This document shows positions 24,930 through 51,012 of a stretch of DNA of 64,000 bases, piece by piece. Position 1 is the first letter of the stretch. Every line of letters starts with the position of its first letter. The DNA is from Pseudoclavibacter sp. AY1H1. Its GTDB lineage: Bacteria > Actinomycetota > Actinomycetes > Actinomycetales > Microbacteriaceae. The stretch lies in contig NZ_PSXX01000005.1 in assembly GCF_002931055.1 (NCBI RefSeq), positions 76,701 to 140,700 of the forward strand, read 5' to 3'. The position numbers and the translations under genes are program-made. Under the pieces are notes generated by a model. It had not been told where the DNA came from and did not search any database. It saw nothing but the letters and a program-made list of their open reading frames with translations.

Positions 24930-24997
24930 GTACAGTAGGCTCTGTTCATGGCTCGCCCGGCCAATCCTATGTGAAGCCAGGACCGTGCATGTACAGA
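24917..24997. promoter_or_regulatory. Operator between gntR and the E1 gene
   Basis: Two in-phase decamers occupy 24917-24936, including GTCTAGCC, one mismatch from GTCTAGAC. A further single unit lies at 24988-24997. The first pair overlaps the annotated gntR start codon, consistent with autorepression, and lies about 150 bases upstream of the divergent E1 gene. Confidence 0.7.
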
Positions 24998-25081: not shown

Positions 25082-27250
25082 ATGTCTACCATCAAGAACC
25101 TCAAGCCGAACGTGAGTTGGGTCCAGCTGGAGACCACCCAGGAGGACTGGGACGACGCAGCCCCGGAGCTCCTGCAGAACTTCGCGGTGCAGCTGCACCT
25201 CGTGCGGGCCTTCGAGGAGGAAGTCCTCAACCTCGCCGGCCAGAAGCTCATCAACGGCCCCGCCCACTCCTCGATCGGCCAGGAAGGCGGCGCCGTCGGC
25301 TCCTGCGTCCCCCTCACCCCCGCCGACCAGGTCAACGGCTCGCACCGAGGCCACCACCAGTTCCTCGCCAAGGTCTTCGGGTACGTGCAGCCGACGGGCT
25401 TCTCCGTCGACGACGAGCTGAGCCCCGAAGTGGTCGACGTGCTCTACCGCAGCCTCGCGGAGATCGCCGGCCTCAAGGACGGCTACTGCAAGGGCCGCGG
25501 TGGCTCCATGCACCTGCAGTGGAAGGAAGCCGGCGCTATGGGCACGAACGCCATCGTCGGCGGCGCGGTGCCCTTCGCGACCGGCTTCGCGTGGGCCGAC
25601 AAGCACGCCGGAACCGACGCGGCCGCTGTCACGTACTTCGGCGACGGCGCGGCGAACATCGGCTCAGTGCTGGAGGCGTTCAACCTCGCCGCCGCCTGGA
25701 AGCTGCCGACGCTCTTCTTCATCGAGAACAACCAGTACGCGGTCTCGACGACCGTCGAGGAAGCGACAGGCGAATCCAGACTCTCCGGCCGCGGCCAGGG
25801 GTTCGGCATCCGCAGCTGGCGCGTCGACGGACAGGACACGCTCGCCGTCTACCTCGCCACGCAGCAGGCCCTCGAGCACATGCGAGCAGGCGAGGGCCCC
25901 GCGATCATCGAAGCGGACACCTACCGGTACTTCCACCAGAACGGCCCATTCCCGGGCAGCGCGTTCGGCTACCGCTCGAAAGACGAGGAGCAGGGCTGGC
26001 GCGACCGCGACCCCATCGCGCTCGTCGAGGCGCACCTCGAGCGGCGGGGCATCGCGACGCGTGAACAGCTCGACAGCCTGGCCGGCCGCATCAAGGAGGT
26101 CATGACCGAGGTGGGCTCGCGCATCGTCGAACCCGACGCCTCCGGGCGCCCGGGCAAGCTGCAGATCAAGCAGAGCCTGTGGCCGTCGACGGACTTCATC
26201 GACATCGGCATCCGCGGCGAGGCCCCGGAGTTCACGGGCGACGTCAAGGAGTGGGGCGACTTCGCCGATGACGAGCTCGAGAAGCGCAAGTTCGTCGACG
26301 TCGTCGCGGCCGTCATGGATCGCCGCATGGAGACGGACGACAGCGTCATCGTGCTCGGCGAGGACGTGCACAAGCTCAGCGGCGGTTCCCGCGGCGCCAC
26401 GAAGGGGCTCGCGGAGAAGTACCCGGGCCGCGTGCTCGGCACCCCGATCAGCGAGGCCGCGTTCACTGGCCTCGGCGGGGGCATCGCGCTCGACGGCCGC
26501 TACTACCCCGTCATCGAGCTCATGTACGCCGACTTCCTCTGGGTGGCCGCAGACCAGCTCTTCAACCAGATCGGCAAGGCCCGCCACATGTTCGGCGGCG
26601 AGCACGACATGCCGCTCATCCTGCGAATCAAGATCGGCACGTCGACCGGATACGGCTCGCAGCACTCCATGGACCCGGCGGGCATCCTCGCCACTTCCGT
26701 CGGCTGGCGCATCATCGCCCCATCCACGGCCGTCGACTACGTCGGCCTCCTGAACACGGCCATGCGCACGAAGGACCCGGTCGCCGTGCTCGAGCACGAC
26801 GCCGACCTGTACAAGACGGAGGGCCTCGCGCCGAAGGATCTCGACTACGAGCTCCCCCTCGGCAAGGCCGCTGTGCGGCGCGAGGGTTCCGGCGTGACGG
26901 TCATCTCGTACCTCTCGATGGTGAAGCGCGCACTGGACGCCGTCGAGGAGTCCGGCGTCGACGGCGAGGTCATCGACCTCCGCTGGCTCGACCGCGCCAG
27001 CATCGACTGGGACACGCTCGAGGCCTCCATCAAGAAGACGAACCGCGTCGTCATCGTCGAGCAGGGCGCGCAGGGCACCTCCTACGGCGCTTGGCTCGCA
27101 GACGCCATCCAGCAGCGCCTCTTCGACTGGCTCGACGCCCCCGTCGCGCGAGTCCACGGCGGCGAGGCATCCCCGAGCATTTCCAAGGCGCTCGAAGAGG
27201 CCGCGAACGCCACGACGGCCGACATCGTCGCGGCCCTCAAAGCCTTCTGA
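25082..27250 (+). CDS. Fused alpha-beta E1 of a 2-oxoacid/acetoin-type dehydrogenase
   Basis: This 722-aa protein has an E1-alpha half followed by an E1-beta half in one chain. The thiamine diphosphate motif is visible: GDGAANIGSVLEAFNLA with the ENN about 20 residues later. The beta half starts near residue 400 with FVDVVAAVMDRRM and contains VLGEDV and SEAAFTGLGGGIALDG. It decarboxylates or cleaves a 2-oxoacid or acetoin-like diketone and passes the acyl group to E2. The substrate is not predictable; pyruvate, branched-chain oxoacids and acetoin are all handled by relatives. It is probably controlled by the upstream GntR operator. Confidence 0.87.
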   Translation: MSTIKNLKPNVSWVQLETTQEDWDDAAPELLQNFAVQLHLVRAFEEEVLNLAGQKLINGPAHSSIGQEGGAVGSCVPLTPADQVNGSHRGHHQFLAKVFGYVQPTGFSVDDELSPEVVDVLYRSLAEIAGLKDGYCKGRGGSMHLQWKEAGAMGTNAIVGGAVPFATGFAWADKHAGTDAAAVTYFGDGAANIGSVLEAFNLAAAWKLPTLFFIENNQYAVSTTVEEATGESRLSGRGQGFGIRSWRVDGQDTLAVYLATQQALEHMRAGEGPAIIEADTYRYFHQNGPFPGSAFGYRSKDEEQGWRDRDPIALVEAHLERRGIATREQLDSLAGRIKEVMTEVGSRIVEPDASGRPGKLQIKQSLWPSTDFIDIGIRGEAPEFTGDVKEWGDFADDELEKRKFVDVVAAVMDRRMETDDSVIVLGEDVHKLSGGSRGATKGLAEKYPGRVLGTPISEAAFTGLGGGIALDGRYYPVIELMYADFLWVAADQLFNQIGKARHMFGGEHDMPLILRIKIGTSTGYGSQHSMDPAGILATSVGWRIIAPSTAVDYVGLLNTAMRTKDPVAVLEHDADLYKTEGLAPKDLDYELPLGKAAVRREGSGVTVISYLSMVKRALDAVEESGVDGEVIDLRWLDRASIDWDTLEASIKKTNRVVIVEQGAQGTSYGAWLADAIQQRLFDWLDAPVARVHGGEASPSISKALEEAANATTADIVAALKAF

Positions 27251-27269: not shown

Positions 27270-28658
27270 ATGGCAACATTCCTCAGGATGCCCGGAGTCT
27301 CCGCCGACTCCGATGAGGCCGCACTCGAGAACTGGCTCGTCGCAGCCGGCGCCTCGGTCAAGAAGGGCGAAGCCGTCGCCGCCGTGGAGACGGAGAAGGC
27401 GGTCGTCGACATCGTCGCAGAGCTCGACGGCGTCGTGCACACGCTCCTCGCCGAGGTCGGCGACATGGTTCCCGTCGGGGACCCCATCGCGATCGTGCTC
27501 GCCGTCGGCGAAGACCCCTCGGCAGCCGCCGAGCTCGCCGCCCAGCTCAGCGGAACCCCGGCCAGCGCCGAGGTCGTGCCGAGCGCGCCGGCTGCAACCG
27601 CAGCGTCTGCGTCCGTCGCCGAAGACGAGGCCGCCCCCGTGAACCCGGAGCCGGTGTCGGCCGAGGCGGCGCAGGACGATGCCTCCACGGGCTCAACCGC
27701 CGACGCGTCGTGCGCCACCGGCTCGACCGGCAGGTCGTGCGACCCGGGGCCGAAGGGCGGTCGCATCTTCGCGAGCCCCCTCGCTCGTCGCCTCGCGAAG
27801 GAGTACGGGCTGTCGATCGAGGACCTCGACGGCACGGGGCCGAACGGGCGGATCGTGCGCGACGACGTCGAGCGGGCACGCGCGTCCGCCGCCACCCCGG
27901 CCGCAGCCGCTCCCGCACTCCAGCCCGCTGCCGCACAGCCGGCACCCACCCCGGCTGCCGACGTCGACCTCCCGGAGGGAGGGGAGGCGACGCCGCACAG
28001 CAAGCTGCGCAGGCTCATCGCGAACCGCCTCCAGACCTCGAAGCGCGACGCCCCGCACTTCTACCTCGAGGCGACGCTGCGCGTCGACGAGCTGCTTGCC
28101 CTGCGCACACAGCTCAACGAGGCGAGCGAGGTCCGAATCTCCGTCAACGACCTCTTCGTGAAGGCCGCCGCCCTCGCACTCCGGGACGTGCCCGAGCTCA
28201 ACGTGATCTGGACGCCGGACGCCGTGGTGTCCTTCGCGACCCAGGATGTGGCGGTCGCGGTGGCCAGCGAGCGCGGCCTCGTGACGCCCGTCATCGCGAA
28301 CGCCGGGGCGCTCAGCATCGGGGCCCTCGCGGCGAAGGTGAAGGACGCGGTGGCGCGCGCCAACGAGGGCCGGCTCCAGCAGAGCGAGCTGCAAGGCGGC
28401 GCCATCTCGGTGACCAACCTCGGCATGTTCGGCGTCGACGCGTTCTCGGCCATCATCAATCCGCCGCACTCCGCGATCCTCGCCGTGGGCGCGGCGCGCA
28501 AGGTGCCGGTTGTGCTCGACGACGACACGCTCGGAGTCGGCACCGTCGTCACCGTGACGCTGTCCGTCGACCACAGGCCCGTCGACGGCATCATCGCCGC
28601 TAGATGGCTGGCCAGGCTCCGCGAGCTCATCGAGAAGCCGCTGGGTCTCCTCATCTAG
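27270..28658 (+). CDS. Dihydrolipoamide acyltransferase (E2)
   Basis: This 462-aa E2 has one lipoyl domain with lipoyl-Lys43 in VETEKAVVD. A long Ala/Pro/Glu linker leads to a peripheral subunit-binding domain at about residues 165-202 (IFASPLARRLAKEYG). The C-terminal acyltransferase has the catalytic SVDHRPVDG. It starts 19 bases after the E1 stop. No E3 gene is present in the window, so dihydrolipoamide dehydrogenase must come from elsewhere. The linker contains two unusual cysteines near residues 148 and 157. The acyl group carried depends on E1. Confidence 0.9.
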   Translation: MATFLRMPGVSADSDEAALENWLVAAGASVKKGEAVAAVETEKAVVDIVAELDGVVHTLLAEVGDMVPVGDPIAIVLAVGEDPSAAAELAAQLSGTPASAEVVPSAPAATAASASVAEDEAAPVNPEPVSAEAAQDDASTGSTADASCATGSTGRSCDPGPKGGRIFASPLARRLAKEYGLSIEDLDGTGPNGRIVRDDVERARASAATPAAAAPALQPAAAQPAPTPAADVDLPEGGEATPHSKLRRLIANRLQTSKRDAPHFYLEATLRVDELLALRTQLNEASEVRISVNDLFVKAAALALRDVPELNVIWTPDAVVSFATQDVAVAVASERGLVTPVIANAGALSIGALAAKVKDAVARANEGRLQQSELQGGAISVTNLGMFGVDAFSAIINPPHSAILAVGAARKVPVVLDDDTLGVGTVVTVTLSVDHRPVDGIIAARWLARLRELIEKPLGLLI

Positions 28659-29082: not shown

Positions 29083-30417
29083 CTACAGCCCGCCGCCAGC
29101 CGCGTCTGCCCTGGCGATGACCTTGTCCAGGAACTCGTCGGTCCAGGCTCCGCCGACGACGAGGAGGTCTGCCAGCGTCAGCCGATCGCGCATGAACGGC
29201 AGCGCGGACAGCGCCCACCTCGCCGTCTCGGCGTCGACGGGCGGCGTCAGCTCGCGGAGGCGAGTCGGCGCACCCCATGCGCGCAGCGTGCCGACGACCG
29301 CCTCCGGCGTGACGAGCTGCGCCCGCACCTCGGCGAGCACGCCTGGTGCGAGCCCGTCGCCGCCCTGCCAGAGCGCGCGCTTGCGCTCGACGTTGGCGGC
29401 GCACGTGGCGCCCAGGCGGCCGCTCGCATCGACCCGCGACCAGACCTCGCTCACCCGCTCCTCGAGGTCGTCGGGATACGCGGAGCCGGGTGCGAGGCGC
29501 ACGAGCCCCTCGCTCAGCGCGACATCCCACAGCGCCGCGCTGAGCACCGTCGCGACCCCGACCTGCGCGCCGTGCAGGTCGTGCGGCTGGTCCTGTGCCA
29601 TGGCGGACATGTCGAGGATGTGGCTGAGGAGATGCTCGTTGCCCGAGAGCGGCGCGGTCGTGCCGAGTGCTCCGATGATGAGGCCGCCGACGGTGAGCGC
29701 GTCGACCAGCGCGGGCATGGCGCCGGGGGCGTGCGCCCCAGCGGCGAGGCGAGCGACGGCGTCACGGATCGGCACGAGCGCCGCCGCGTCTGCCTGCGTG
29801 CCCTGCAGGGCGGACGCGAGTAGCCAGTCGGCGCCGGAGCAGCCGATGGCAACCGCGTCGCCGACACCGGCGGCCACGAGGCGGGCCGGTGAACGGTCGA
29901 GGGCATCCGCGTCGATGAGGAGCGCGTCCGGCCACCTCGTGGGCGTCGTGGACTTCGCCCCGCCGCGCACGAGCACGCTGAGCGAGTCGGCGAAGCCGTT
30001 GACGGAGGGCGCGCTCTGCACCGCGACGAGCAGCACCCCAGCCGGGGCGACCGCCTTGCCGAGATCGGTGACGGTGCCGGAGCCGACGGTGACCACCGCC
30101 CGCGCTCCATCGACTGCGGACGCTGCGCTCGCGACGGTCGCCTCGTCGAGGACCAGCCCGTGCCCGCCGATCTCCAGGGCCGGGCGGCGCACGAGGTATC
30201 CCCCCGCGGCGAGCGCGGCCGTGACCTCCTCCCCGAGCTCGCCCGTCGAGGTGAGCTTCTGCGCGCTGTCCGCGAGCAGCGCGACGTCGGCACCGTCGGG
30301 CACGCCGAGGTCTCGCAGCACGCGACCGACCGCGAGGCGCACATCCGCTTCGTAGCGCAGCACCCGGAGCTTGCCGCCGGAGGCCTCGAATGCGTATGCC
30401 TGCAGCGCTGCCGTCAT
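29083..30417 (-). CDS. AraM/EgsA-like glycerol-1-phosphate dehydrogenase family protein
   Basis: This 444-aa protein is of the iron/zinc alcohol dehydrogenase superfamily. The NAD motif GSGTVTDLGK and the segment SAPSVNGFADS match sn-glycerol-1-phosphate dehydrogenases. Metal-binding histidines are in NEHLLSHILDM and HDLHGAQVG. Family members reduce DHAP to sn-glycerol-1-phosphate or oxidise related polyol phosphates. The C-terminal domain is normal. Its ATG overlaps the stop of the HAD phosphatase (ATGA). The neighbouring FGGY kinase suggests it oxidises that kinase's polyol-phosphate product. Confidence 0.82.
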   Translation of the reverse strand: MTAALQAYAFEASGGKLRVLRYEADVRLAVGRVLRDLGVPDGADVALLADSAQKLTSTGELGEEVTAALAAGGYLVRRPALEIGGHGLVLDEATVASAASAVDGARAVVTVGSGTVTDLGKAVAPAGVLLVAVQSAPSVNGFADSLSVLVRGGAKSTTPTRWPDALLIDADALDRSPARLVAAGVGDAVAIGCSGADWLLASALQGTQADAAALVPIRDAVARLAAGAHAPGAMPALVDALTVGGLIIGALGTTAPLSGNEHLLSHILDMSAMAQDQPHDLHGAQVGVATVLSAALWDVALSEGLVRLAPGSAYPDDLEERVSEVWSRVDASGRLGATCAANVERKRALWQGGDGLAPGVLAEVRAQLVTPEAVVGTLRAWGAPTRLRELTPPVDAETARWALSALPFMRDRLTLADLLVVGGAWTDEFLDKVIARADAAGGGL

Positions 30418-31277
30418 GCGGCGGCCTCCCGTTCGGTTGTGGTCAGGTCGCGTTCGAGCCTGCTCCAGGCACCTGAGCGGTGCAGGTCCACGAGTTGGTC
30501 GATGCCGGACAGCACCACGTGCGGCCGTTCGGCTCCCGGCGCGAGCTCGGCATCGCCGGGCTGCGCCTCGCCGGTGAGCACGAGCGCCGTGCCGGCACCC
30601 CAGGCCCTGCCGAACGCCATGTCGGTCGCGAGTCGGTCGCCGACCATCACGGTGCGCTGCGGGTCGAGCCCACGAGCGCCCGCGATGACGTCGAAGAAGT
30701 CGACGCTCGGCTTCCCGAAGACCGCGACGCAGCGGGTGCCCGTGCCGGCCTCGATGGCCGCCGTCACGCAGGCCGCGTCCGGCTCCCCTCTGCCGCCCGG
30801 GAACGGGCAGTACCGGTCGGGGTTGGTGGCCACGAGCTCCGCGCGCTTGTGCATCCAGATGGCGTCGAACGCGATCTGCAGCTTTCGGTAGTCGAAGTGG
30901 CGATCGTAGGAGGCGACCACGAGGTCGATCGCCTCCGGGTCCTCGCTCACGGTGATGCCCGCAGCGATGAGCGCGCCGAGGAGCGACTGCTCGCCGATGG
31001 GGAACACCGTCGCGCCCGGCCGGTGACGGGTGATCCATTCGACGGTGGCCACGAGGCTCGTGTACACGTCGCGCTCGTCGGTGGGGATGCCGAGGGCGGT
31101 GAGCTTCTCTGCGTAGTCGCCCGGCGTCTTGGTGGGGTTGTTGCTGCAGAACAGCACCGTGGCTCCCGCCTCCCGGAGCTCGATGACGGTGTCTCGGGCC
31201 CCGGGGAGCAGACCACCGCCGAGGTAGATCGTGCCATCGAGGTCGAAGAGGTACGCGTCTGGGACGTCGGCTCTCAC
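30414..31277 (-). CDS. NagD/AraL-like HAD-IIA sugar phosphatase
   Basis: This 287-aa HAD subfamily IIA phosphatase has Asp nucleophile motif FDLDGTIYLGG near the N-terminus, SNNPTK in motif II, the lysine motif FGKPS, and MVGDRLATD at the end. NagD and AraL relatives dephosphorylate a range of sugar phosphates. The GTG at 31277 overlaps the kinase stop as GTGA, which fixes the start. The order kinase / AraL-type / AraM-type recalls Bacillus subtilis araB-araL-araM. A housekeeping role against toxic phosphosugars is likely. Confidence 0.85.
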   Translation of the reverse strand: MRADVPDAYLFDLDGTIYLGGGLLPGARDTVIELREAGATVLFCSNNPTKTPGDYAEKLTALGIPTDERDVYTSLVATVEWITRHRPGATVFPIGEQSLLGALIAAGITVSEDPEAIDLVVASYDRHFDYRKLQIAFDAIWMHKRAELVATNPDRYCPFPGGRGEPDAACVTAAIEAGTGTRCVAVFGKPSVDFFDVIAGARGLDPQRTVMVGDRLATDMAFGRAWGAGTALVLTGEAQPGDAELAPGAERPHVVLSGIDQLVDLHRSGAWSRLERDLTTTEREAAA

Positions 31278-32818
31278 TGCTCGTCGGCCCTGGTCGCCGC
31301 CTGCAGCTCGTCCCAGATGGGCAGCATCGCGGTGCGGATGCTGCGGTAGACGGGGAAGAAGCGGTCGTAGATCTTCGTGTTGTCGCGGTTGGGCTCGTAC
31401 GTGCGGACGATGTTGACGGTCGCGTCGGCGCCCTGGGCGTAGGACGCGAAGACGCCGGCTCCGACGCCCGCGACGATGGCGGCGCCCTTGGCGCCGAACT
31501 CGGTGCCCGCCGGGACGATGATCGTCCGACCGAGCACGTCCGCGAAGATCTGGCACCAGACGGCGCTGTTCGCACCGCCCCCGGCCATGCGCACGGTCTT
31601 GACCTCGGTCGGGATGGAGTCGAGGCAGTCACGGATGCCGTAGGCGACACCCTCGTAGACGGCGCGCAGCATGTGGCGGCGCGTGTGGGAGCCAGTGATG
31701 CCATTGAAGGAGCCGCGGGCGCTGGGCTTCACGAAGGGCGCGCGTTCGCCGCCCGGCGCGAGGTAGCCGTGGTACAGCACGCCCTCGGCTCCGACGGGGG
31801 TCTCGGTGACGACCTCGTCGAGGTAGTCGAAGATGTCGATGTTCTTGCCGCGGGCTTCGAGCGAGAAGGCGGCGCCGAGCTCGGCGAGGAACCAGTCGAG
31901 GTTGGGCGTGCAGAAGTTCATGCCCATGGCGCGAATCCACGTGTCGGGGCTGTGCGGGATGACCCAGCCGGAGTCTGCGGGCTCGAAGCCGTGCTCGAGC
32001 GTGTCGGTCGCGACGGTGACGATGCCGGCGGTGCCGATCACGGCCATGCAGTCGCCTGGGCGGGCGACGCCGACGCCGAGCGAGGACGCGGTGATGTCCA
32101 TCTGGCCCTTGTAGACGGGGGTACCCGCGATGAGTCCGGTGACGCCAGCAGCCTCCTCGGTGATCTCGCCAGCGAGGTCGGTGGAGGACTTGATCTTGGG
32201 CAGGACGTGCTTGATGTCTTCGATGCCCCACGTGCGCAGGACCTCGTCTGACCATTGGCGGGTGCGTGCGTCGATGCCGGAGAGGCTGGCGTCGGAGGCA
32301 TCGGTGGAGATGTCGCCGGTGAGGCGGTACTCGATCCAGTCCTTGCACCACAGCTGCGTGGCGCCTTCGAGGAGCTCGCGCTGGTTGTCGCGGCGCCAGC
32401 GGAGGATGGCGGAGGCGGTGCCGGCGTATGGGCCGGTGCCGCTGATGTCGAACTGCTTCGTGACGGTGCCGTCGGTGTACCACTCGTCGATGATGCTGCC
32501 CGTGCGGCCGTCCGTCCAGAGGATGGCAGGACCGGCCGGCTTGCCGTTCTTGTCGATGAGCCAGCTGCCGTCGCCTTGGCCGGTGACGGAGATCGCGATG
32601 ATCTCGCGGGGCCGCACCGCGCTGCCGGTGATGGCGTCGCGGATGGCCGTGGTGGCGGCGATCCAGACGGTCTCCATGTCTTCCTCGGCCTCGTAGGACT
32701 TGGGGTTCGAGATGGGCACATTCGCGGCGCCTCTGCTGAGCTCCGTGCCGCGTTCGTCGAAGACGGCGGCCTTGATGACGGATGTTCCCGCGTCGATGCC
32801 GAGAAGGTACGAGGTCAT
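31274..32818 (-). CDS. FGGY carbohydrate kinase (EryA/polyol kinase-like)
   Basis: This 514-aa kinase has both FGGY domains. The N-terminus GIDAGTSVIKAAVF and the segment ISVTGQGDGSWLIDKNG are reminiscent of erythritol kinase EryA. ATP-site segments AVIGTAGIV and MAGGGANSAVW are present. It would phosphorylate a polyol or ketose. It heads a minus-strand operon with the phosphatase and AraM-like genes and is divergent from a zinc polyol dehydrogenase. An in-phase decamer operator lies in the shared promoter region. Erythritol, threitol or a pentitol are candidate substrates; none is proved. Confidence 0.87.
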   Translation of the reverse strand: MTSYLLGIDAGTSVIKAAVFDERGTELSRGAANVPISNPKSYEAEEDMETVWIAATTAIRDAITGSAVRPREIIAISVTGQGDGSWLIDKNGKPAGPAILWTDGRTGSIIDEWYTDGTVTKQFDISGTGPYAGTASAILRWRRDNQRELLEGATQLWCKDWIEYRLTGDISTDASDASLSGIDARTRQWSDEVLRTWGIEDIKHVLPKIKSSTDLAGEITEEAAGVTGLIAGTPVYKGQMDITASSLGVGVARPGDCMAVIGTAGIVTVATDTLEHGFEPADSGWVIPHSPDTWIRAMGMNFCTPNLDWFLAELGAAFSLEARGKNIDIFDYLDEVVTETPVGAEGVLYHGYLAPGGERAPFVKPSARGSFNGITGSHTRRHMLRAVYEGVAYGIRDCLDSIPTEVKTVRMAGGGANSAVWCQIFADVLGRTIIVPAGTEFGAKGAAIVAGVGAGVFASYAQGADATVNIVRTYEPNRDNTKIYDRFFPVYRSIRTAMLPIWDELQAATRADEQ

Positions 32819-32888: not shown

Positions 32889-32928
32889 CTTGTCTAGCCA
32901 TGCACAGTCTTGTACATGCTTGTACTTT
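32889..32928. promoter_or_regulatory. Operator between FGGY kinase and polyol dehydrogenase genes
   Basis: Four uninterrupted decamers run at 32889-32898, 32899-32908, 32909-32918 and 32919-32928. Each begins CWTG. The first carries GTCTAGCC, the same core as at the gntR promoter. The array covers the divergent promoter region, ending 26 bases before the dehydrogenase start. Confidence 0.8.
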
Positions 32929-32954: not shown

Positions 32955-33986
32955 ATGAAAGCTCTCCTCAAGTTCTCGCCAGCAGCCGGGGCTGTCGAAC
33001 TGCGCGACGTGAAGGAGCCGAGCATCGCCGACGATGCCGTGCTCATCGACGTGGCCTTCGGCGCCGTCTGCGGCACCGACCGGCACGCGATCGACAGCGT
33101 CGGCGACCAGCACACCCCGCGCATCCTGGGCCATGAAGCATCCGGCACCATCGCCGCCCTCGGCGACGGGGTCGTGCGTGCCGACCTGCAGATCGGCACT
33201 CCGGTCACCTTCGAGACGGATGCCGTGCTCTGCATGCAGTGCACCTACTGCAGGTCCGAGCAGTACAACCGCTGCTCGAGGCGCACGGGCATCGGCACGA
33301 CGACCGACGGCGCACTGGCGGACCGCATCGCGATGCCCGAACGCGCCGTGCACGCACTGCCACCGGGGGTGGGCCTCCGAGCGGCCGCGCTGACAGAGCC
33401 CCTCGCCGTGTCCGTGCACGCCGTCGTCGAGCGCTCCGCACCACTCGCCGGCGAGGTCGTCGTCGTGACCGGGCCTGGGGCGGTCGGGCAGCTGACAGCA
33501 CTTGTCGCCCTCGCCGTGGGTGCGACGCCCATCCTCGTGGGGCGCAGCCGACATCGGGAGACGCTCGACCGCGCACTGGAGATGGGGATCCCGTACGTCG
33601 TGGACAGCGAGCGCGAATCGGTCGTCGAGCTCGTGAGGTCGCTCACGGGCGGACTCGGCGCGGCCGCCGTGTTCGAATGCTCCGGCAGCCCGGAGGTTGC
33701 AGAGAGCGCACTCGAGCTGCTCGCGAAGGGCGGTGAGCTCATCATGGTGGCGTTCTACACGCGCAATCCGGACTTCGACATCGGCGCCGTCGTGAACCGA
33801 GAGCTGACCCTCAAGGGATCACGAGGGAAGCGCCCGTCAAGCTACCGCACGGCACTTCGGCTCATGGGCCAGGGGCGCATCGACACGGAAGCCGTGATCG
33901 GGCGCGAGCTCGCCCTGGAGGACTGGCGGGCAGGGATGGATCTCGTCGCGAAAGGCGTCAAGGTCGTCTTCCGCATCCACGACTAA
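32955..33986 (+). CDS. Zinc-dependent polyol/alcohol dehydrogenase
   Basis: This 343-aa medium-chain dehydrogenase has catalytic zinc ligands Cys39 (VCGTDRHA) and His60-Glu61 (GHEASG). The structural zinc site uses Cys93, 96, 99 and 107 (CMQCTYC and C). The Rossmann motif VVTGPGAVGQL is intact. Relatives oxidise sorbitol, xylitol, threitol or similar. The ATG at 32955 has GGAG just upstream. It is divergent from the FGGY kinase operon and shares its operator, suggesting oxidation of a polyol before or beside kinase action. Confidence 0.87.
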   Translation: MKALLKFSPAAGAVELRDVKEPSIADDAVLIDVAFGAVCGTDRHAIDSVGDQHTPRILGHEASGTIAALGDGVVRADLQIGTPVTFETDAVLCMQCTYCRSEQYNRCSRRTGIGTTTDGALADRIAMPERAVHALPPGVGLRAAALTEPLAVSVHAVVERSAPLAGEVVVVTGPGAVGQLTALVALAVGATPILVGRSRHRETLDRALEMGIPYVVDSERESVVELVRSLTGGLGAAAVFECSGSPEVAESALELLAKGGELIMVAFYTRNPDFDIGAVVNRELTLKGSRGKRPSSYRTALRLMGQGRIDTEAVIGRELALEDWRAGMDLVAKGVKVVFRIHD

Positions 33987-36888: not shown

Positions 36889-38382
36889 CTACGCCACCTT
36901 CTTGGCCCACCCCATGGTGAGCTCCCGAGCAGCGCGCCAGCCGGCGTACATCGAGTCGGCCTCATCCCGCGAGCGCTGCGGCTCGAAGACCCGGTCGACC
37001 TTCCACTTGCTCTCGACCTCCTCGAGGTCGGCGAAGATACCCGCCGACATTCCGCCGAGCAGCATGGCGCCGAAGATGGTGGCCTCCGCGATCTTGGGGC
37101 GCACGACGGGAATGCCGAGCACATCGGCCTGCAACTGGCAGAGCAGGTTGTTCTTGACGGCGCCGCCGTCGACGCGCAGCTCAGAGATGGAGATCTCGCC
37201 ACTCTGCGTTGCGGCCTCGACGACGTCGCGGGTCTGGAACACCATCGATTCCACGGCGGCGCGGATGATGTGCAGTCGGGTGGTCGCGTTGCTCATGCCG
37301 ATGATGGCCGCGCGAGCGTGGGGGTCCCATGTCGGTGCCGCAAGACCGGTGAAGGCGGGAATCAGGTAGACCCCTTCGGTGCTGGCCACCTGACCGGCGT
37401 ACCACTCGCTGTCGGGGGCGGCGTGGATGAGCTGCAGGTCGTCGCGCAGCCACTGCATGGTCTTGCCCATGGCGAAGAGCACGCCCTCGATCTCGTACGA
37501 GGTCTTGCCCTCGACAGTCCAGGCCACGCTCGGGGTGAGCCCTTCGATGCGCTGCGGCTTGTCACCGGAGTTGATGTTCAGCACGCCAGCGGTGCCGTAC
37601 GTCATCTTGCTCAGCCCCTTCCTGAAGGCGGCCTGCCCGAAGAGGCCAGCCTGCTGGTCGCCCAGGTTGCCGCCGATCGGCACTGGGGCCCCGAACGTCG
37701 CGCTGAGGTCGCCGACGATCTCGCCGCTCGGCACGATGTCGGCGAGCATCTTGCGAGGGATCCCGTAGTGACCGAGCAGCTCTTCATCCCACTGGAGCGT
37801 CTCGAGGTTCATCATCATGGTGCGGGAGGCGTTGGAGGTATCGGTCACGAAGGCCTTGCGGCCCGTCAGGTTCCAGATGAGCCACGTGTCGATCGTTCCG
37901 GCGAGCAGCTCGCCCGCCTCAGCTCTGGCCTGGGCGCCCGGCACCTGGTCGAGGATCCAGCGGATCTTGGAGGCCGTGTAGTACGCATCCGGGATCAGGC
38001 CCGTGCGCTCCTGGATGAGCGGGCCGATGCCCTGCTCGACCCAGCCTTCGACGACTTCCACCGAGTGCCTGGACGCCCACACGATGGCGTTGTAGATCGG
38101 CGCGCCCGTCTCTTTGTCCCACACCACTCCGGTCTCGCGCTGGTTGGTCATGCCGACCGCGCTGAGGTCGCTCGGCTCGAGGTTCGCGTCGCGCAGAGCG
38201 GCACGAATCACCTCGAGCTGGGTGTTGAGGATCTCGCGAGGGTTGTGCTCGATGAGGCCGGGTCGAGGGTAGAGCTGCGTGAGCTCCGCCTGGGCGAAGC
38301 CCACGACGTTGCAGTCCTCATCGATGATGAACGCGCGGGCACTCGTCGTGCCCTCGTCGATGCCGAGAATGTACTTTGCCAT
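36889..38382 (-). CDS. glpK: Glycerol kinase
   Basis: This 497-aa FGGY kinase has glycerol-kinase hallmarks: LGIDEGTTSARAFIID, GMTNQRETGVVWDKETG, and TYGTAGVLNINSGD near the middle. Length is typical. I use the ATG at 38382, where MAKYILGIDEGT begins; an in-frame start eight codons upstream is less likely. It converts glycerol to sn-glycerol-3-phosphate, the substrate of GlpD encoded at 49.3 kb. No aquaglyceroporin gene is seen. It is divergent from the membrane protein/HAD/RLP operon and shares its operator. Confidence 0.94.
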   Translation of the reverse strand: MAKYILGIDEGTTSARAFIIDEDCNVVGFAQAELTQLYPRPGLIEHNPREILNTQLEVIRAALRDANLEPSDLSAVGMTNQRETGVVWDKETGAPIYNAIVWASRHSVEVVEGWVEQGIGPLIQERTGLIPDAYYTASKIRWILDQVPGAQARAEAGELLAGTIDTWLIWNLTGRKAFVTDTSNASRTMMMNLETLQWDEELLGHYGIPRKMLADIVPSGEIVGDLSATFGAPVPIGGNLGDQQAGLFGQAAFRKGLSKMTYGTAGVLNINSGDKPQRIEGLTPSVAWTVEGKTSYEIEGVLFAMGKTMQWLRDDLQLIHAAPDSEWYAGQVASTEGVYLIPAFTGLAAPTWDPHARAAIIGMSNATTRLHIIRAAVESMVFQTRDVVEAATQSGEISISELRVDGGAVKNNLLCQLQADVLGIPVVRPKIAEATIFGAMLLGGMSAGIFADLEEVESKWKVDRVFEPQRSRDEADSMYAGWRAARELTMGWAKKVA

Positions 38383-38450: not shown

Positions 38451-38490
38451 CATGTCAATGCTTGCACATGCATGTATAGACTTGTATATG
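38451..38490. promoter_or_regulatory. Operator between glpK and the membrane protein/HAD/RLP operon
   Basis: Four uninterrupted decamers occupy 38451-38490. The last two contain GTATAGAC (38474-38481), identical to the core at the dhaK promoter. The array lies 69 bases from the glpK start and 51 bases from the membrane-protein start, suited to control of both directions. Confidence 0.82.
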
Positions 38491-38540: not shown

Positions 38541-39485
38541 ATGGAAATCGACCTGTTCTCCATCCTCGCCGCACTGGCAGGTGGCTTCTTCGGAGCAGCG
38601 ATCGGAAGTCTGCACGCCTTCGTCTTCACCGGTGTGCTCGTCATCGTCGGGTTCGTCGCACAAGTCGCGGTCCCGGATGCACCCATCATCAGCAGCCTCG
38701 CGTTCGGTCCCGCTTTCGGCCCCCACATCGCGTTCGCCGGCGGTGTCGCCGCGACCGCGTACGCGGCACGCCGCGGCTACATGGAGAACGGCAAGGACAT
38801 CGTCCTGCCCCTCGCCGCACTCGCCAAGCCGGACGTGCTCGCCGTCGGAGCCGTCTTCGGGCTCTTCGGCTACTTCGTGCAGAAGCTCATCGCGATCATC
38901 CCCGGCTTCGGCGCCATCACCGACTCCGTCGCCCTGACCGTCGTCATCAGCGCCATCCTCGCCCGCGTCCTCTTCGGGCGCACCAAGGTCTTCGCCCGGA
39001 ACAACTCAGGCAAGAGCGGCTTCGACTCCTTCGAGCCCAACGACGCCGGCTCCTGGATCCGCGCCCAGGAGAGCTTCGGCATCAACACGGCGCTCGGCGT
39101 CGGAGCGGGGCTCTTCGCCTCCTTCATCTCCATCACGCTGCTGCAGGCCTTCCCGGAAGCCGCCAACGCGTCGACCTTCGTGTTCGGCATCTCTGCGCTC
39201 TCCCTGATCCTCCTCTCCGCAGGCCAGCCAGTGCCGGTCACGCACCACATCACGCTGCCGGCCTCCATCGCGGCCGCGACCTTCTACCCCCTGGTCGGCG
39301 AGAACGCCGCCCTCGCGATCATCATCGGCGCCGCGGCCGGCGTGCTGGGAGCCTGGTTCGGGGAACTCTTCGCCCGCCTGTGGCAGTCTCACGGCGACAC
39401 GCACATCGACCCGCCGGCAGCAGCCATCTGGCCGGCGACGACGATCGTGCTCGGCCTCGGCGCCGTCCTCGGAGCCGCCGGCTGA
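38541..39485 (+). CDS. Unrecognised polytopic membrane protein, candidate transporter
   Basis: This 314-aa protein has about nine or ten hydrophobic segments. Notable segments are FGPAFGPHIAFAGGVAATAY and QPVPVTHHITLPASIAAATF, which could be related halves of a repeat. A charged loop, about residues 150-180 (RTKVFARNNSGKSGFDSFEP), splits the protein. There is no aquaporin NPA motif. The ATG at 38541, with AGAAAGG upstream, is preferred over a GTG seven codons earlier. It is the first gene of the HAD-RLP operon. A polyol or sugar-acid permease is plausible; I do not recognise the family. Confidence 0.75.
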   Translation: MEIDLFSILAALAGGFFGAAIGSLHAFVFTGVLVIVGFVAQVAVPDAPIISSLAFGPAFGPHIAFAGGVAATAYAARRGYMENGKDIVLPLAALAKPDVLAVGAVFGLFGYFVQKLIAIIPGFGAITDSVALTVVISAILARVLFGRTKVFARNNSGKSGFDSFEPNDAGSWIRAQESFGINTALGVGAGLFASFISITLLQAFPEAANASTFVFGISALSLILLSAGQPVPVTHHITLPASIAAATFYPLVGENAALAIIIGAAAGVLGAWFGELFARLWQSHGDTHIDPPAAAIWPATTIVLGLGAVLGAAG

Positions 39486-39581
39486 CGACGAGCTCCAAGC
39501 ACCCGCCGCACCACGCAGCCGCTCGACGCCCGACCGCCTGACCTCGATCCGACCCGACCCGACCCGAAGGAGCACCCCCTC

Positions 39582-40451
39582 GTGCCAGCATCCGTGAACC
39601 TCGACACCGTGCGCGCAGTCGCGCTCGATGTCGACGGGACCATCGCCGGAGCCGACCACCAGCTCACCCCGCGCACGACAGCAGCCCTCCGCTCGCTCGT
39701 CGAGCACGGCATCCCGGTGATCCTCCTCACCGGACGGGCGAGACAGAACGTGCTCGAGCTGGCGCGAGAGGCGGGCATCCGCAACACGGTCGCAAGCAAC
39801 AACGGGGCGGTCATCTTCGACCCGGTGGAGGACACCAACACGACGATCACGCCGATGACGCACGCCGAGGCCAGGCGCATCCTGGACCTCGGCGCGCGCC
39901 TCGGGCTCGAACGCACCTGGTGGTCGGTCACCGACATCTACGTCGACCGGGACGGCGAGTGCTCGCGGATGCTGCGGGAGCTCAACGAGCGGGACATCAT
40001 CGTCGGCGATCCCGACGAGCTGCCTGACGACATCACCAAGGTGATGCTCTTCGGCAGCGAGGCGGAACTCGACGAGGTCGCCGACCGCATCTTCGACGCC
40101 GCGCCGTCCGGCACCCGCTCCATGTACTGCTTCTTCGAGTTCGTGGCGCCGGATGCGACGAAGTGGCATGCGCTCGAGACCATGCTCGAGGAGCACGGCG
40201 TCGACCCAGCGCACACCCTCGGCCTCGGCGACGGCGGCAACGACCTCGCCTGGCTCACCCAGATCGGCTTCCCCTTCGCGATGGAGAACGCCCGCCAGGA
40301 GGTCAAGGACATCGCGATCGGCGTCGTCGGCCACCACGCCCACGACGGTGCCGCCGAGATCCTCGAGGAGCTGGCCAGGAGCATCGGCGCCGATGCCCCG
40401 GCACCGACCGCCAAACAGCAGGAGCTCGCCGAGCAGCAGGAGGACCACTGA
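39582..40451 (+). CDS. Cof-type HAD-IIB phosphatase
   Basis: This 289-aa HAD hydrolase has Asp16 and Asp18 in ALDVDGTIAG, ILLTGRARQNV in motif II, and the motif IV sequence GLGDGGNDLAWL. A cap domain of the Cof type lies between. The GTG at 39582 follows AAGGAG. It overlaps the RLP start by one base, so the two are translationally coupled. In methionine salvage, an RLP (MtnW) precedes a HAD phosphatase (MtnX), an analogous pairing with a different HAD subtype. The substrate is unknown. Confidence 0.85.
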   Translation: MPASVNLDTVRAVALDVDGTIAGADHQLTPRTTAALRSLVEHGIPVILLTGRARQNVLELAREAGIRNTVASNNGAVIFDPVEDTNTTITPMTHAEARRILDLGARLGLERTWWSVTDIYVDRDGECSRMLRELNERDIIVGDPDELPDDITKVMLFGSEAELDEVADRIFDAAPSGTRSMYCFFEFVAPDATKWHALETMLEEHGVDPAHTLGLGDGGNDLAWLTQIGFPFAMENARQEVKDIAIGVVGHHAHDGAAEILEELARSIGADAPAPTAKQQELAEQQEDH

Positions 40452-41722
40452 TGGACATCGAATTCGTCCCCGCCGATCTCGCCCTCGAGCGCGACCTGAT
40501 CCTCGCGAGCTACGTCTTCACGCTGCCGGCGAGCCAGGACGCGCACGCCGTCGTCCAGCGCTTCGCAGTCGGCCAGACCACCGGCACCTGGCTTCCCGTC
40601 CCCGGCCTCACGCGCGAGCTGCGCGACAGGCACGAGGCGCGCATCGTGCGCATCCAGCCCATCCCGGCCGCCGACACGACGACCTCGGCGCCAGACGACG
40701 CGAGCTGGTACTTCGCCACGATCGGCGTGCCGGCAGTGAACATCGGGGATTCGATCCCGCAGCTGCTCACGACGCTCATCGGCAACGACGCCTCCACGTC
40801 GCTCGAGGCGAAGCTCGTCGACCTCGAGTTCCCGCGAGCGCGCCTCGACGCGTTCGCTGGCCCCCGCTTCGGCATCGAGGGGCTCCGGCGGGTGCTCGAC
40901 GTCGAGTCGCGCCCCCTGCTGCTCAACATGCTGAAGCCATGCACGGGCCTGACCCCCGACGAGGGCGCCGCGATCGCATACGAGACGGCACTCGGCGGCA
41001 TCGACATGATCAAAGACGACGAGCTGCTCGGCAACACCGCCTTCTCGCCCGTCGTCGACCGTGTCATCGCCTACAACGAGGCGCTCGACCGCGCCGCGCA
41101 GGTCACCGGCCGGCGCACCATGTACATCCCGAACGTCTCCGACCGGCCGGACCGCATGCTCGACACTGCCAGACGAGCCGTGGATGCGGGAGCTCGCGCC
41201 GTCATGGTCTGCTACGCCAACGTGGGCTACGGCTCGGTCGAGGCGCTCGCCGACGCGGTCGACGTGCCTATCCTCGGGCACTTCGCCGGCTCAGCCCCCT
41301 ACTTCGAGAACGCCACGACGGGCATGACCTCGCCCATCGCGAGCGGCCTGCTCCCCCGCCTCGCGGGAGCCGACCTCGCGCTCGTGAACACTCCGTACGG
41401 CGGGTACCCGATCACGCGGCTGCAGTACCTGCAGACCGCGCAGCAGCTCAAGGTGCCCCGCCCTGGCCTCCGCAGCACGGCGCCCATCATCGGCGGCGGC
41501 GTGCACCCGGGCACCGTGGCGACGTACGTCGGCGATCTCGGCAACGACATCGTGCTGGGCGTCGGCGGCGCCATCCAGGGGCACCCGGGCGGACCCGCGT
41601 CGGGAGGCCTCGCCATGCACCAGGCCATCGACGCGGCGCTCGCAGGCCGCGACGTCCGCGACTCCGACGGGCAGACACCGGAGCTCGACGCGGCCATCGC
41701 AGCCTGGGGCACCCTCGACTAG
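40451..41722 (+). CDS. RuBisCO-like protein (form IV type)
   Basis: This 423-aa protein has the RuBisCO large-chain fold order. Lys162 lies in NMLKPCTGLTPDE, where RuBisCO has its KPK motif. Lys188-Asp-Asp-Glu191, in GGIDMIKDDELLG, matches the carbamylated lysine and magnesium ligands. The second KPK lysine is Cys164, and the loop-6 lysine region reads LVNTPYGG, so CO2 fixation is unlikely. GGGVHPGT late in the chain resembles the MtnW-type enolases. It likely enolises, isomerises or decarboxylates a phosphorylated keto-sugar. Coupled to the HAD gene; under the glpK operator. Confidence 0.9.
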   Translation: MDIEFVPADLALERDLILASYVFTLPASQDAHAVVQRFAVGQTTGTWLPVPGLTRELRDRHEARIVRIQPIPAADTTTSAPDDASWYFATIGVPAVNIGDSIPQLLTTLIGNDASTSLEAKLVDLEFPRARLDAFAGPRFGIEGLRRVLDVESRPLLLNMLKPCTGLTPDEGAAIAYETALGGIDMIKDDELLGNTAFSPVVDRVIAYNEALDRAAQVTGRRTMYIPNVSDRPDRMLDTARRAVDAGARAVMVCYANVGYGSVEALADAVDVPILGHFAGSAPYFENATTGMTSPIASGLLPRLAGADLALVNTPYGGYPITRLQYLQTAQQLKVPRPGLRSTAPIIGGGVHPGTVATYVGDLGNDIVLGVGGAIQGHPGGPASGGLAMHQAIDAALAGRDVRDSDGQTPELDAAIAAWGTLD

Positions 41723-44435: not shown

Positions 44436-44489
44436 CACCTCGTCGCGCGGATCAGGGCGAGCAACGAGCAACAGGGAAGAGAGAGCACC

Positions 44490-48404: not shown

Positions 48405-49208
48405 CTACCCGCGATCGATGCGTGGCGCATTGCTCGCCAGCTGGTCCTGCACCGCTCGCACTTCGCGGACGGTCTCCAGGAAGCCTGCCGCCCGGAGGCC
48501 GAAGCGTCCGAGGAAGACGCCATCGGGGTGCCCCGCGCCGAGCTCTTCCGCGGCATCCCAGATGGCGGCGAAGGTCCCCGGCCCGGCGCTGCCGCCGTAG
48601 AGGATGCGCACGTCCCCCGAGCGACCGGCGAGCTGCCCGCGGATATGCGCGATGGTGGCCGCCACGTAGTCGCCGGGGGCCGGCTCGGGCTGCCCGATCG
48701 CCCAGCTCGGCTCGTAGGCGACGACGATCGGCCGGTCGCCGGGAACATCCGCGAACGCCTCCGTCAGCTGCCGGTCGATGATCGACCTGGCCGCCTCACC
48801 CCGTTCCGGCTCCCCGGCGATCAGGATGGGGACCACTCCCGCGTCGGACGCGGCACGGCACTTCTGTCGCACGTCGGCGAGGGTCTCGCCGAGGAGCTTC
48901 GCGCGCTCGGGGTGCCCGACCATGACCAGCGTCGCACCGACCTCCGACAGCACCTCGGCCGCCGTCTCGCCGGTGAAGGCCCCGAGACCGAAGGGCGAGA
49001 CATCCTGCGCCCCGACCTGCGCTCCGATCTCGTCGAGCGCGTTGCCTGCGATCGAGATGACCGGGTCGGGCGTGCAGAGGAAGATGCCGTCGCCGCTGCG
49101 GGGACTCCCCCTCAGCTCGCCCACGACCTCGGCGACCCAGGCTCGCGTGTCGGCGAGGGTCGCGTAGGACTTCGAGCTGTGACCGATCATCATGGCTGGC
49201 AGCGTCAT
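48405..49208 (-). CDS. Non-canonical triosephosphate isomerase family protein
   Basis: This 267-aa TIM-superfamily isomerase has His99 in VGHPERA, Glu166 in AYEPSWAIG and Lys13 in GHSSKSY, which replace or match canonical catalytic residues. The usual GNWKM motif is changed to GHSSKSY, and loop 6 reads WAIGQPEP instead of WAIGTG. Such paralogues (EryH, DerI or LerI in tetritol pathways) isomerise tetrulose phosphates. It is divergent from glpD with a candidate operator between. GAFTGE and YGGSAGP are retained. A tetrulose-phosphate role is inferred; triose activity cannot be excluded. Confidence 0.85.
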   Translation of the reverse strand: MTLPAMMIGHSSKSYATLADTRAWVAEVVGELRGSPRSGDGIFLCTPDPVISIAGNALDEIGAQVGAQDVSPFGLGAFTGETAAEVLSEVGATLVMVGHPERAKLLGETLADVRQKCRAASDAGVVPILIAGEPERGEAARSIIDRQLTEAFADVPGDRPIVVAYEPSWAIGQPEPAPGDYVAATIAHIRGQLAGRSGDVRILYGGSAGPGTFAAIWDAAEELGAGHPDGVFLGRFGLRAAGFLETVREVRAVQDQLASNAPRIDRG

Positions 49209-49282: not shown

Positions 49283-49312
49283 CCTGTGCGAACATGTACG
49301 TACAACTTCGTT
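49283..49312. promoter_or_regulatory. Weak operator between tpi-like gene and glpD
   Basis: A decamer CATGTACGTA (49293-49302), flanked by partly matching units, contains the 10-bp palindrome TGTACGTACA. It is the least convincing of the five sites. It lies 36 bases from the glpD start and 75 bases from the tpi-like start. Confidence 0.5.
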
Positions 49313-49347: not shown

Positions 49348-51012
49348 ATGGCAACGACGCCGAGCACTTCCCTCCACCGCGGACTCCCGCGTGCGAGCCC
49401 ACGCGAACTCGCGAGCCGCACCTTCGACGTCATCGTCGTCGGCGCCGGCATCAACGGCGCCGCCGTCGCCCGCGAAGCCGCCATGCGCGGCCTGAGCGTC
49501 GCCCTCCTCGAACGCAGCGACTTCGGCGAGGGCACGTCCGCCTGGAACTCCCGCCTCATCCACGGCGGCCTCCGCTACCTGGAGCACGGGGAGATCCCCC
49601 TCGTCTACGAGTCGCTCCACGACCGCGAGGCGCTCCTCCACATCGCGCCGCACCTCATCGAGCCCATGCCCTTCATCGTGCCGCTCTACAAGCACAATCA
49701 CCTCCCCGGCTGGATGTTCCGGATCGGGATGATCCTCTACGACGTGCTCTCCCTCCAGAAATCGCTGCCGTCGCATCGGCACCTCGGCGTGAAGGAGCTC
49801 GCCACCGAGTTCCCCGGCCTCCGCCGCAGAGGCCTCGGCGGCGGACTCCACTATTACGATGCGCAGATCGCGTACCCGGAGCGACTCGTGCTCGAGACGA
49901 TCCTGAGCGCAAGCGACGCTGGCGCGCGCGTCGCGAACTACACGAGCGTGGACAGCCTCGTCCGCGACGGCACCGCCGTGACCGGAGTGGAGGCCACCGA
50001 CCTGACGAGCGGCGAGCGCTTCACGGTGCGCGGCCAGACCGTCGTCAACGCGGCAGGCCCCTGGCTCGACGAGCTCTCCCTGCCCGCGGGAGTGAAGCGG
50101 CAGATCGGCGGCACCACCGGCACGCACCTCGTCGTCGACGAGTTCCCGGGCGCCCCGACCGCCACCATCTACTACGAGGCGTTCACCGACAACCGCGCGA
50201 TCCTCGTCATCCCCTGGAACGGCAAGTACCTCATCGGCACGACCGACGACCGCTTCGACGGCGACCCGGGCAAGGCGCGCGGCACCGCGGCGGAGGTCGA
50301 GTACATCCTCAAGGAGACGAACCTCGTCATCCCACAGGCGAAGCTCACCAAGGCCGACGTGCTCTACAGCTACACCGGAGTCCGCCCCCTGCCCTTCGTC
50401 GACGCCGCCAAGACCGGTGCCATCTCGCGCAGCCACATCATCACCGCCCACGACGACCGCCTGGGCCTCGTGAGCATCGTCGGCGGCAAGCTCACGCCGC
50501 ACCTCAGCCTCGCGAAGGAGACCGTCGACCTCATCGCCGACAAGCTCCTCGGGCGGAAGCTGCCCGCCTCCGGCGCGGCCAAGGCCACCCTGCCCGGCGC
50601 ATCCTGGAGCAAGTGGCCGAGCACGTCCCTGCGGCGCACGAACCTCAGACGCGACCTCCCGTGGGACGAGGCGATCTCCGACCGCCTCGTCCGCGTCTAC
50701 GGCGCCCGCGCCCTCGAGATCGCCGCCCTCGCCGCGGAGAGGACGCAGCTCGCGGCGGTCATCGGCGAAGGCCCCTCCGCCATCGTCGCCGCTGAGATCG
50801 TGTTCGCCATCGAGCAGGAGAGCGCCGTGCACCTCAGCGACATCCTGCATCGGCGCACGATGGTCGGCCTCGAGGGCGACCTCGCCGTCTCCGTCGCCGA
50901 GGAGTCGGCGGCCGTCGCGGCGGATGCGGCCGGTTGGTCGGCAGAGCGCGTCACCCAGGAGCTCGCCGACCACGCCGCGTACATCACTCGCTTCCGCGGC
51001 GGGCTCGACTAG
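49348..51012 (+). CDS. glpD: Glycerol-3-phosphate dehydrogenase
   Basis: This 554-aa FAD enzyme oxidises sn-glycerol-3-phosphate to DHAP and feeds electrons to the quinone pool. The FAD motif VIVVGAGINGAAVAREAAMRG and the segment TSAWNSRLIHGGLRYLE are conserved. A C-terminal domain follows after about residue 400. The ATG at 49348 has AGGAG upstream. It is divergent from the tpi-like gene. With GlpK it completes glycerol dissimilation. EryB enzymes of erythritol catabolism belong to the same family, so tetritol phosphate is an alternative. Confidence 0.93.
   Translation: MATTPSTSLHRGLPRASPRELASRTFDVIVVGAGINGAAVAREAAMRGLSVALLERSDFGEGTSAWNSRLIHGGLRYLEHGEIPLVYESLHDREALLHIAPHLIEPMPFIVPLYKHNHLPGWMFRIGMILYDVLSLQKSLPSHRHLGVKELATEFPGLRRRGLGGGLHYYDAQIAYPERLVLETILSASDAGARVANYTSVDSLVRDGTAVTGVEATDLTSGERFTVRGQTVVNAAGPWLDELSLPAGVKRQIGGTTGTHLVVDEFPGAPTATIYYEAFTDNRAILVIPWNGKYLIGTTDDRFDGDPGKARGTAAEVEYILKETNLVIPQAKLTKADVLYSYTGVRPLPFVDAAKTGAISRSHIITAHDDRLGLVSIVGGKLTPHLSLAKETVDLIADKLLGRKLPASGAAKATLPGASWSKWPSTSLRRTNLRRDLPWDEAISDRLVRVYGARALEIAALAAERTQLAAVIGEGPSAIVAAEIVFAIEQESAVHLSDILHRRTMVGLEGDLAVSVAEESAAVAADAAGWSAERVTQELADHAAYITRFRGGLD

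Follow-up and report, generated by a model that had tools for sequence, protein, structure and literature searches.

RuBisCO-like proteins (RLPs) illustrate the reuse of RuBisCO chemistry, and a reaction is known for few of their clades. Here we describe an operon encoding a membrane protein, a HAD phosphatase and an RLP in a 64,000-nucleotide stretch of Pseudoclavibacter sp. AY1H1 (contig NZ_PSXX01000005.1, positions 76,701 to 140,700), hereafter the window. The host genome is 4.2 Mb in size and 98% complete. The nearest described RLP is MtnW, the 2,3-diketo-5-methylthiopentyl-1-phosphate enolase of methionine salvage. MtnW is the best curated-model match and the best PDB sequence match of the window RLP, and it stands near the top of a fold search. 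The two share the fold, the residues K175, K201, D203, E204 and H294 (RuBisCO numbering), and a HAD gene nearby. However, the window RLP reaches about half of the curated MtnW cut-off (238 versus 513.6 bits) and falls in a separate clade. In the N123 column it has Asn112, whereas MtnW has a Lys, its catalytic base. A second described type, OiaX/OiaT of apionate breakdown, also places an RLP inside a sugar pathway, and the R. etli OiaX operon has a triosephosphate isomerase (TIM)-like gene near the RLP. Unlike OiaX, the window RLP has lost R295 and K334, scores 182 bits against a curated cut-off of 700, and belongs to another clade. A query for the DUF1537 kinase of that type matched nothing in the window or in any stretch from the six genomes, whereas positive controls matched.

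Two further described gene sets resemble the cluster in which the operon lies. PMC3522698 and PMC5992420 list, among the erythritol-induced genes of Brucella, a kinase, a COG0578 dehydrogenase, a second TIM, a fructose-bisphosphate (FBP) aldolase and RpiB. The first four of these five kinds occur in our cluster, and in Brucella they are induced together. The cluster differs in having an RLP, HAD phosphatases and the E1 and E2 genes of a pyruvate dehydrogenase (PDH)-type complex, and in that its kinase is GlpK-like. The glycerol operon glpK-dhaKLM-glpD and the haloarchaeal rrnAC0550 family share with the cluster GlpK and GlpD homologues and, by adjacency and description, the membrane protein family. 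Here, however, the kinase pocket is altered, and ordinary glycerol genes are present elsewhere in the genome. We found no account of an RLP-polyol cluster or pathway in the open-licence literature searched.

Operator and gene cluster

The three frames of the operon have the starts and stops that an earlier note on this DNA had given them, and the HAD and RLP frames share one base at 40451. Third-position G+C is 0.90, 0.93 and 0.93 in the frames of the membrane protein, the HAD phosphatase and the RLP, respectively. The operon is divergent from a kinase gene (Table 1) that the earlier note had called glpK, placing the operon under the glpK operator. The divergence holds, but the kinase is not the top GlpK of its genome (628 versus 801 bits). 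It is a paralogue with an altered pocket, and the site is common to a whole regulon.

We are confident that the RLP operon is a member of a regulon, presumably under GntR control. The top shared 14-mer (3 mismatches) occurred in 14 of 20 regulatory stretches of six genomes, and the best 14-mers of three shuffled sets reached 5 or 6 stretches. A weight matrix was trained without the window and used to scan all of it. Of its 25 best sites, many of which overlap one another, 24 were spread over five cluster promoter regions, and the remaining site was at 47992. The dhaKL promoter region was found in this way although it lies outside the stretches that built the motif. With up to 2 mismatches, TGTATAKACWTGTA had 12 matches in the genome, all 12 within four of these five regions; the reversed pattern had 5 matches genome-wide. 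M. komossense (Mycolicibacterium komossense) has a perfect operator copy 5' of E1/GntR, a site absent from motif training. The shared site is palindromic and, we presume, of GntR type, and the cluster contains a GntR/UTRA gene whose product is the putative reader of the operator. The operator of a plain glycerol operon was rejected because the genome matches are confined to the cluster, which has its own GntR gene.

We compared the cluster with those of four genomes of the same family, Microbacteriaceae (G173, G026, G321 and G384), and of M. komossense. The RLP, GlpK-like, TIM-like and GlpD-like genes occur together in all six genomes. G173, G026, G321 and M. komossense also have in common the genes for the GntR/UTRA regulator, the class II aldolase, the HAD-IA, HAD-IIA and HAD-IIB phosphatases, E1, E2, the glycerol-1-phosphate-dehydrogenase-like (G1PDH-like) protein and the membrane protein. 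Each of these four has two GlpK-like kinases in its cluster, and the window has one. In G384 the cluster was seen from the GlpK-like to the GlpD-like gene, after which the contig ends. The tie between the RLP and polyol- or glycerol-type genes proposed in the earlier note is therefore kept in five other genomes, and a conserved regulon containing the RLP is well supported. The HAD gene is immediately 5' of the RLP gene in all five operons measured. Its distance from the RLP gene is 66, 93, 10 and 104 bases in the four relatives, so that the overlap is private to the window genome, and a parallel with MtnW/MtnX drawn from it fails.

The cluster copies of glycerol enzymes are not the only ones in their genomes. 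Among five genomes searched for paralogues, all five have a separate TIM (284-292 bits versus 130-146 for the cluster copies) and a separate GlpK (best 768-801 versus 616-641 bits). One more TIM match was found in G384 and two weak ones in the window genome. The window kinase passes PRK00047 and scores 583.5 bits against a TIGR01311 cut-off of 590.35. F270 is replaced by V in 11 of 11 cluster kinases and is F in 8 of 8 others compared. Trp103 is followed by ASR in the cluster kinases and by QDT or QDR in seven readable others. The roles of these pocket residues are those of their counterparts in E. coli GlpK. The TIM-like proteins keep the active-site Lys, His and Glu, but loop 6 and the surroundings of the catalytic residues differ. 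The window copy scores 78.8 bits with the solved L-erythrulose-1-phosphate isomerase versus 111.9 and 108.5 with other TIM entries, and that isomerase was not among the best 60 PDB matches of the M. komossense copy. Therefore, we do not claim a four-carbon substrate from the TIM-like protein. The duplicated enzymes probably serve a substrate that is glycerol-like but different from glycerol.

The RuBisCO-like protein and the membrane protein

The RLP matches Pfam RuBisCO_large (E 1.2e-40) and is the sole PF00016 match in the genome. Its predicted structure (AlphaFold, mean pLDDT 65.8) confirmed the fold in a fold search and nothing beyond. Residues K162, K188, D190 and E191 align to RuBisCO K175, K201, D203 and E204, in agreement with the Lys162 and Lys188-Asp-Asp-Glu191 of the earlier note. 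Also kept, in RuBisCO numbering, are T65, W66, N123, H294, G380, G381 and G403. The loss of other carboxylation residues, likewise noted earlier, extends to all six members of the clade: E60 is changed to G, K177 to C, R295 to F, H327 to L, K334 to G and S379 to G. In the same six, G404 is changed to A and H298 to S or A. Judged by the roles of the aligned residues in metal binding, phosphate binding and carboxylation by RuBisCO, the metal/carbamate site appears intact and the first-phosphate side largely kept, and the second-phosphate site and the carboxylation residues appear lost. The substrate would thus carry one phosphate. The large-chain domain, the kept metal/carbamate site and the lost carboxylation residues place the protein among form IV RLPs. 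A true RuBisCO was rejected, since all six carboxylation residues checked are replaced.

In a tree of 61 RLP sequences, the window RLP groups with five relatives in a single clade (100/100). The next to join it are seven rows from another actinobacterial family (100/99), and a 28-row set that includes two archaeal metagenome-assembled genomes (MAGs) encloses it (100/97). MtnW (100/100), the OiaX type (17 rows) and the MtnA-linked type all lie outside the window clade. DUF1537 was seen beside 14 of the 17 OiaX-type rows and not in the short loci L007-L009. MtnW was the nearest neighbour of the larger RLP set in the first tree (86/58), a position unresolved in the final one. Before the first tree, 13 rows that repeated the same gene were removed; before the final tree, 8 rows were removed (form I and close rows) and 7 added. 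Some rows drew a warning from the tree program for their long branches and unusual composition. The tree covers a part of the RLPs only: of the 396 genomes searched in the phylum, 81 had an RLP match, and loci were obtained for 20 of the matching places.

Membership in the described classes was rejected on scores, clades, active-site residues and neighbours. For MtnW, the neighbours here are a conserved polyol-type cluster, and models of MtnA and acireductone dioxygenase (ARD) had no match in the whole window genome (G000), G173, G384 or M. komossense. This widens the earlier observation that methionine-salvage genes are not nearby. In G026 and G321, ARD and MtnA-like genes do occur at other loci, with MtnA under its cut-off. 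For OiaX, five tabulated rows of that type keep R295 and K334, and the window lacks a DUF1537 match, as the earlier note had seen. For the Rhodospirillum type, the rows with MtnA and cupin neighbours (named by eye) form another clade. The outcome that the earlier note had held against itself, a firm grouping within MtnW with salvage genes elsewhere and no conserved polyol link, is thus not what we found.

The membrane protein has no Pfam match, no NCBIfam match and no PDB relative, and its predicted structure was too poor for a fold search (AlphaFold, 3 sequences, mean pLDDT 44.6). The earlier note considered it an unrecognised transporter. PMC3102087 (2011) predicted that an uncharacterised membrane protein beside haloarchaeal glycerol kinases represents a novel family of glycerol transporters, whose members in bacteria are encoded close to glycerol or propanediol genes. 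Our protein fits this family (rrnAC0550) by adjacency and description rather than by sequence comparison. It occurs in 16 of the 396 phylum genomes sampled, the window genome included. Among 16 other loci, the same stretch (up to 20 kb) holds a GlpK-like gene in 10, two of these being cut short, and DhaK in 12. Polyol or alcohol genes were recognised in three of the four loci that lack DhaK and not in the fourth. Adjacency to a glycerol kinase is thus true of many, not all, loci.

Nine plasmid records had a match to the membrane protein, and five were examined. Its gene is inside a polyol cluster in Rubrobacter, adjoins alcohol and aldehyde dehydrogenase genes in Rhodococcus, and is directly 3' of glpK, opposite a GlpA-like gene, in the haloarchaeon Natribaculum. 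In Haladaptatus it is without a recognised glycerol gene. On the plasmid of Microbacterium sp. J1-1 (L073:5369-10299) it lies between transposases, 3' of glpK and after epoxide hydrolase and haloalcohol dehalogenase genes.

A putative polyol pathway and competing readings

We tentatively read the RLP operon as an arm of the GntR regulon that would degrade a glycerol-like polyol, most likely of four or five carbons; we give this somewhat less than an even chance. The membrane protein would take up the polyol, the GlpK-like kinase would phosphorylate it, and the GlpD-like enzyme would oxidise it to a ketose 1-phosphate, a larger analogue of dihydroxyacetone phosphate. We propose a ketose 1-phosphate as the RLP substrate because it is the expected product of this pair and fits a one-phosphate site. 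The RLP is best read, from its residues and company, as a non-carboxylating enolase or isomerase of such a mono-phosphorylated ketose. Carbamylated Lys188 would bind Mg beside Asp190 and Glu191. The enzyme would remove the C3 proton to give a 2,3-enediolate and put a proton back on the other carbon, shifting the carbonyl without fixing CO2. This exact reaction is possible but doubtful. The TIM-like isomerase would act on the same or the next intermediate, and the HAD-IIB enzyme would dephosphorylate a product or by-product. The aldolase, DhaKL and the PDH-type complex would feed the resulting fragments to central metabolism. RpiB was not found in the clusters of the window and its relatives, where controls matched, so that the RLP may do the isomerisation done by RpiB in Brucella. 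We do not claim erythritol itself as the substrate.

Several points weigh against this proposal. An RLP with more than 60% identity is present in only 5 of 398 Microbacteriaceae genomes, the window genome included, and the same search found no RLP match in nine other members of the genus. The TIM-like/GlpD-like promoter region has only the weak site at 49291 and none of the 12 genome matches. Of the three pattern matches in stretch L195 of M. komossense, one lies beyond the cluster genes and one between them, and the operator sites of G384, seen only in part near a contig end, miss the 2-mismatch limit. The dhaKL genes were not found in the relatives' stretches searched and occur in the window only. 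The xylulokinase-like kinase and the MDR dehydrogenase are present in G173, G026 and M. komossense and missing from G321. Another GlpD is present in all five genomes searched, and the cluster copy outscores the next best (348-356 versus 331-346 bits, cut-off 360), so that divergence from the ordinary type is seen for the kinase and the TIM only. A pure isomerase also leaves the three phosphatases and the E1/E2 genes unexplained, and the TIM-like protein may already perform 2,3-enediol-type chemistry.

A competing reading applies the logic of methionine salvage to a polyol: the RLP would convert a keto-1-phosphate as an enolase or beta-eliminase. The HAD phosphatase would remove the phosphate, or follow its loss, and the resulting dicarbonyl or 2-oxoacid would become an acyl-CoA via the cluster E1/E2. 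We consider this rather unlikely. E1 and E2 are kept in all four relatives' clusters seen in full, and the HAD gene directly precedes the RLP gene in the five operons measured. In a different RLP clade, genes for PDH-type E1alpha, E1beta and E2 adjoin the RLP (L176:201-4881, Pfam), and a short E2-like fragment (44 bits) is 3' of the RLP at a contig end (L177:1868-3535). In L169, an FGGY kinase and a class II aldolase-type gene are 5' of the RLP. However, L178, third in the clade of L176, lacks E1/E2 over 11.9 kb, the N123 column is Asn here and Lys in MtnW, and no diketone-forming dehydratase was recognised in the cluster. The E1/E2 genes may also encode nothing more than a PDH that takes pyruvate derived from pathway products. 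The broader claim, that RLP and HAD turn a polyol keto-1-phosphate into a dicarbonyl or 2-oxoacid for a dedicated PDH-type complex in more than one RLP lineage, seems to us unlikely. If true, it would be an undescribed catabolic pathway, with methionine-salvage-type chemistry for polyol carbon. For the RLP reaction, we rank isomerisation first and loss of a group to give an enol or dicarbonyl for HAD and E1/E2 second.

Other readings fare worse. A decarboxylase or C-C hydrolase of the OiaX/OiaT kind would match the TIM-like gene of the R. etli operon; given the score, the clade, the lost R295 and K334 and the DUF1537 result, it is improbable. The three HAD phosphatases in a single cluster could suggest that RLP and HADs clean up dead-end sugar phosphates made by promiscuous kinases. 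This is, if anything, slightly more improbable, as the joint occurrence of RLP, GlpK-like, TIM-like and GlpD-like genes in six of six genomes fits a main route better. A diverged MtnW still in methionine salvage, with incidental neighbours, would agree with the top matches to MtnW and with the ARD and MtnA-like genes of two genomes. It is highly improbable given the low score, the separate clade and the conserved polyol-type cluster, and is largely refuted by the four of six genomes without an MtnA or ARD match. Because this unassigned RLP clade is accompanied by an explicit regulon and by a kinase, a dehydrogenase and an isomerase, a direct search for its substrate is possible. The cluster would also test the proposed glycerol/polyol transporter family and could show the role of sugar-kinase-linked RLPs in other Actinomycetota and archaea.

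Further features and loci

The coordinates of the cluster are collected in Table 1. Neither E1 nor E2 reaches the curated PDH cut-offs, so that "PDH-type" is a family name that implies no substrate. PDB searches with E1 and with the aldolase did not reveal a substrate.

Table 1. Features of the RLP operon and its cluster in the window.
Feature	Position	Strand	Remark
Membrane protein	38541..39485	+	predicted polyol/glycerol permease family; no Pfam or NCBIfam match
HAD-IIB (Cof-type) phosphatase	39594..40451	+	GTG start at 39594 or 39582
RLP	40451..41722	+	423 aa; own clade
GlpK-like FGGY kinase	36889..38382	-	paralogue, altered pocket (F270 to V)
Operator of RLP operon and GlpK-like gene, TGTATAGACTTGTA	38473..38486	+	
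Operator, FGGY/MDR promoter region	32911..32924	+	
Overlapping operators, GntR/E1 promoter region	24905..24932		
Operator cluster 5' of dhaKL	20478..20568		
Weaker operator-like site, TIM-like/GlpD-like promoter region	49291..49304	-	11.6 bits (matrix trained without window)
GntR/UTRA regulator, presumed operator reader	24135..24887	-	start at 24887 or 24929
DhaK (dihydroxyacetone kinase subunit)	20610..21611	+	
DhaL	21593..22246	+	
Class II ketose-bisphosphate aldolase type	22355..23227	+	
HAD-IA phosphatase	23224..23988	+	
E1 alpha-beta fusion, PDH-type 2-oxoacid dehydrogenase complex	25082..27250	+	below curated cut-offs
E2, same PDH-type complex	27288..28658	+	below curated cut-offs
G1PDH-like (Fe-ADH_2)	29083..30417	-	
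HAD-IIA phosphatase	30414..31277	-	
FGGY kinase, xylulokinase-like	31274..32818	-	
Zinc alcohol/polyol dehydrogenase (MDR)	32955..33986	+	
TIM-like paralogue	48405..49208	-	catalytic Lys/His/Glu kept
GlpD-like FAD dehydrogenase	49348..51012	+	

Between the RLP and the TIM-like/GlpD-like genes (41785-46196) are a PucR-type regulator, an MFS transporter and an amidohydrolase, without a counterpart in the relatives' stretches except a 22% partial MFS match in G321. In G026, a further RLP belongs to an OiaX-like operon that also includes a DUF1537 kinase and, named by eye, sugar ABC transporter genes (L059:9558-14929). M. komossense has a form I-like RuBisCO amid Calvin-cycle-like and hydrogenase-like genes, likewise named by eye (L196:8141-9529). 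A pattern scan of contigs gave four RLP loci: a Herbiconiux MAG (62%), M. komossense (61%) and two archaeal MAGs (40% and 39%).

The 28-row clade of the window RLP also holds FGGY-linked RLPs from fragmentary Actinomycetota genomes and the two archaeal MAGs. Unlike the window RLP, they keep K334 and mostly E60 and S379, and their neighbours are others. In this subclade, a kinase of the same family stands by the RLP in 10 of 11 loci, 12-107 bases away in nine (L173 among them) and one gene away in one; the eleventh locus ends in a fragment read as FGGY by eye. Several of the RLP and FGGY kinase pairs of other Actinomycetota (L062-L071, L173) come with a saccharopine-dehydrogenase-like gene. No kinase was seen on two short archaeal RLP contigs. 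The nine sister-family RLP loci have no FGGY kinase; two have a TIM gene, one adjoining the RLP and one 4 kb off. According to PMC7325909, a UBA1414 actinobacterium has a form IV protein of unknown function, which may be an epimerase acting on sugars. An FGGY kinase gene and rhamnose-mutarotase-like and B12-binding genes are near the RLP in L176. A transketolase half adjoins the RLP in L020 and L023. On a conjugative plasmid of Vibrio nigripulchritudo (L153:791-5410), a split transketolase, an RLP and an FGGY kinase stand in a row.

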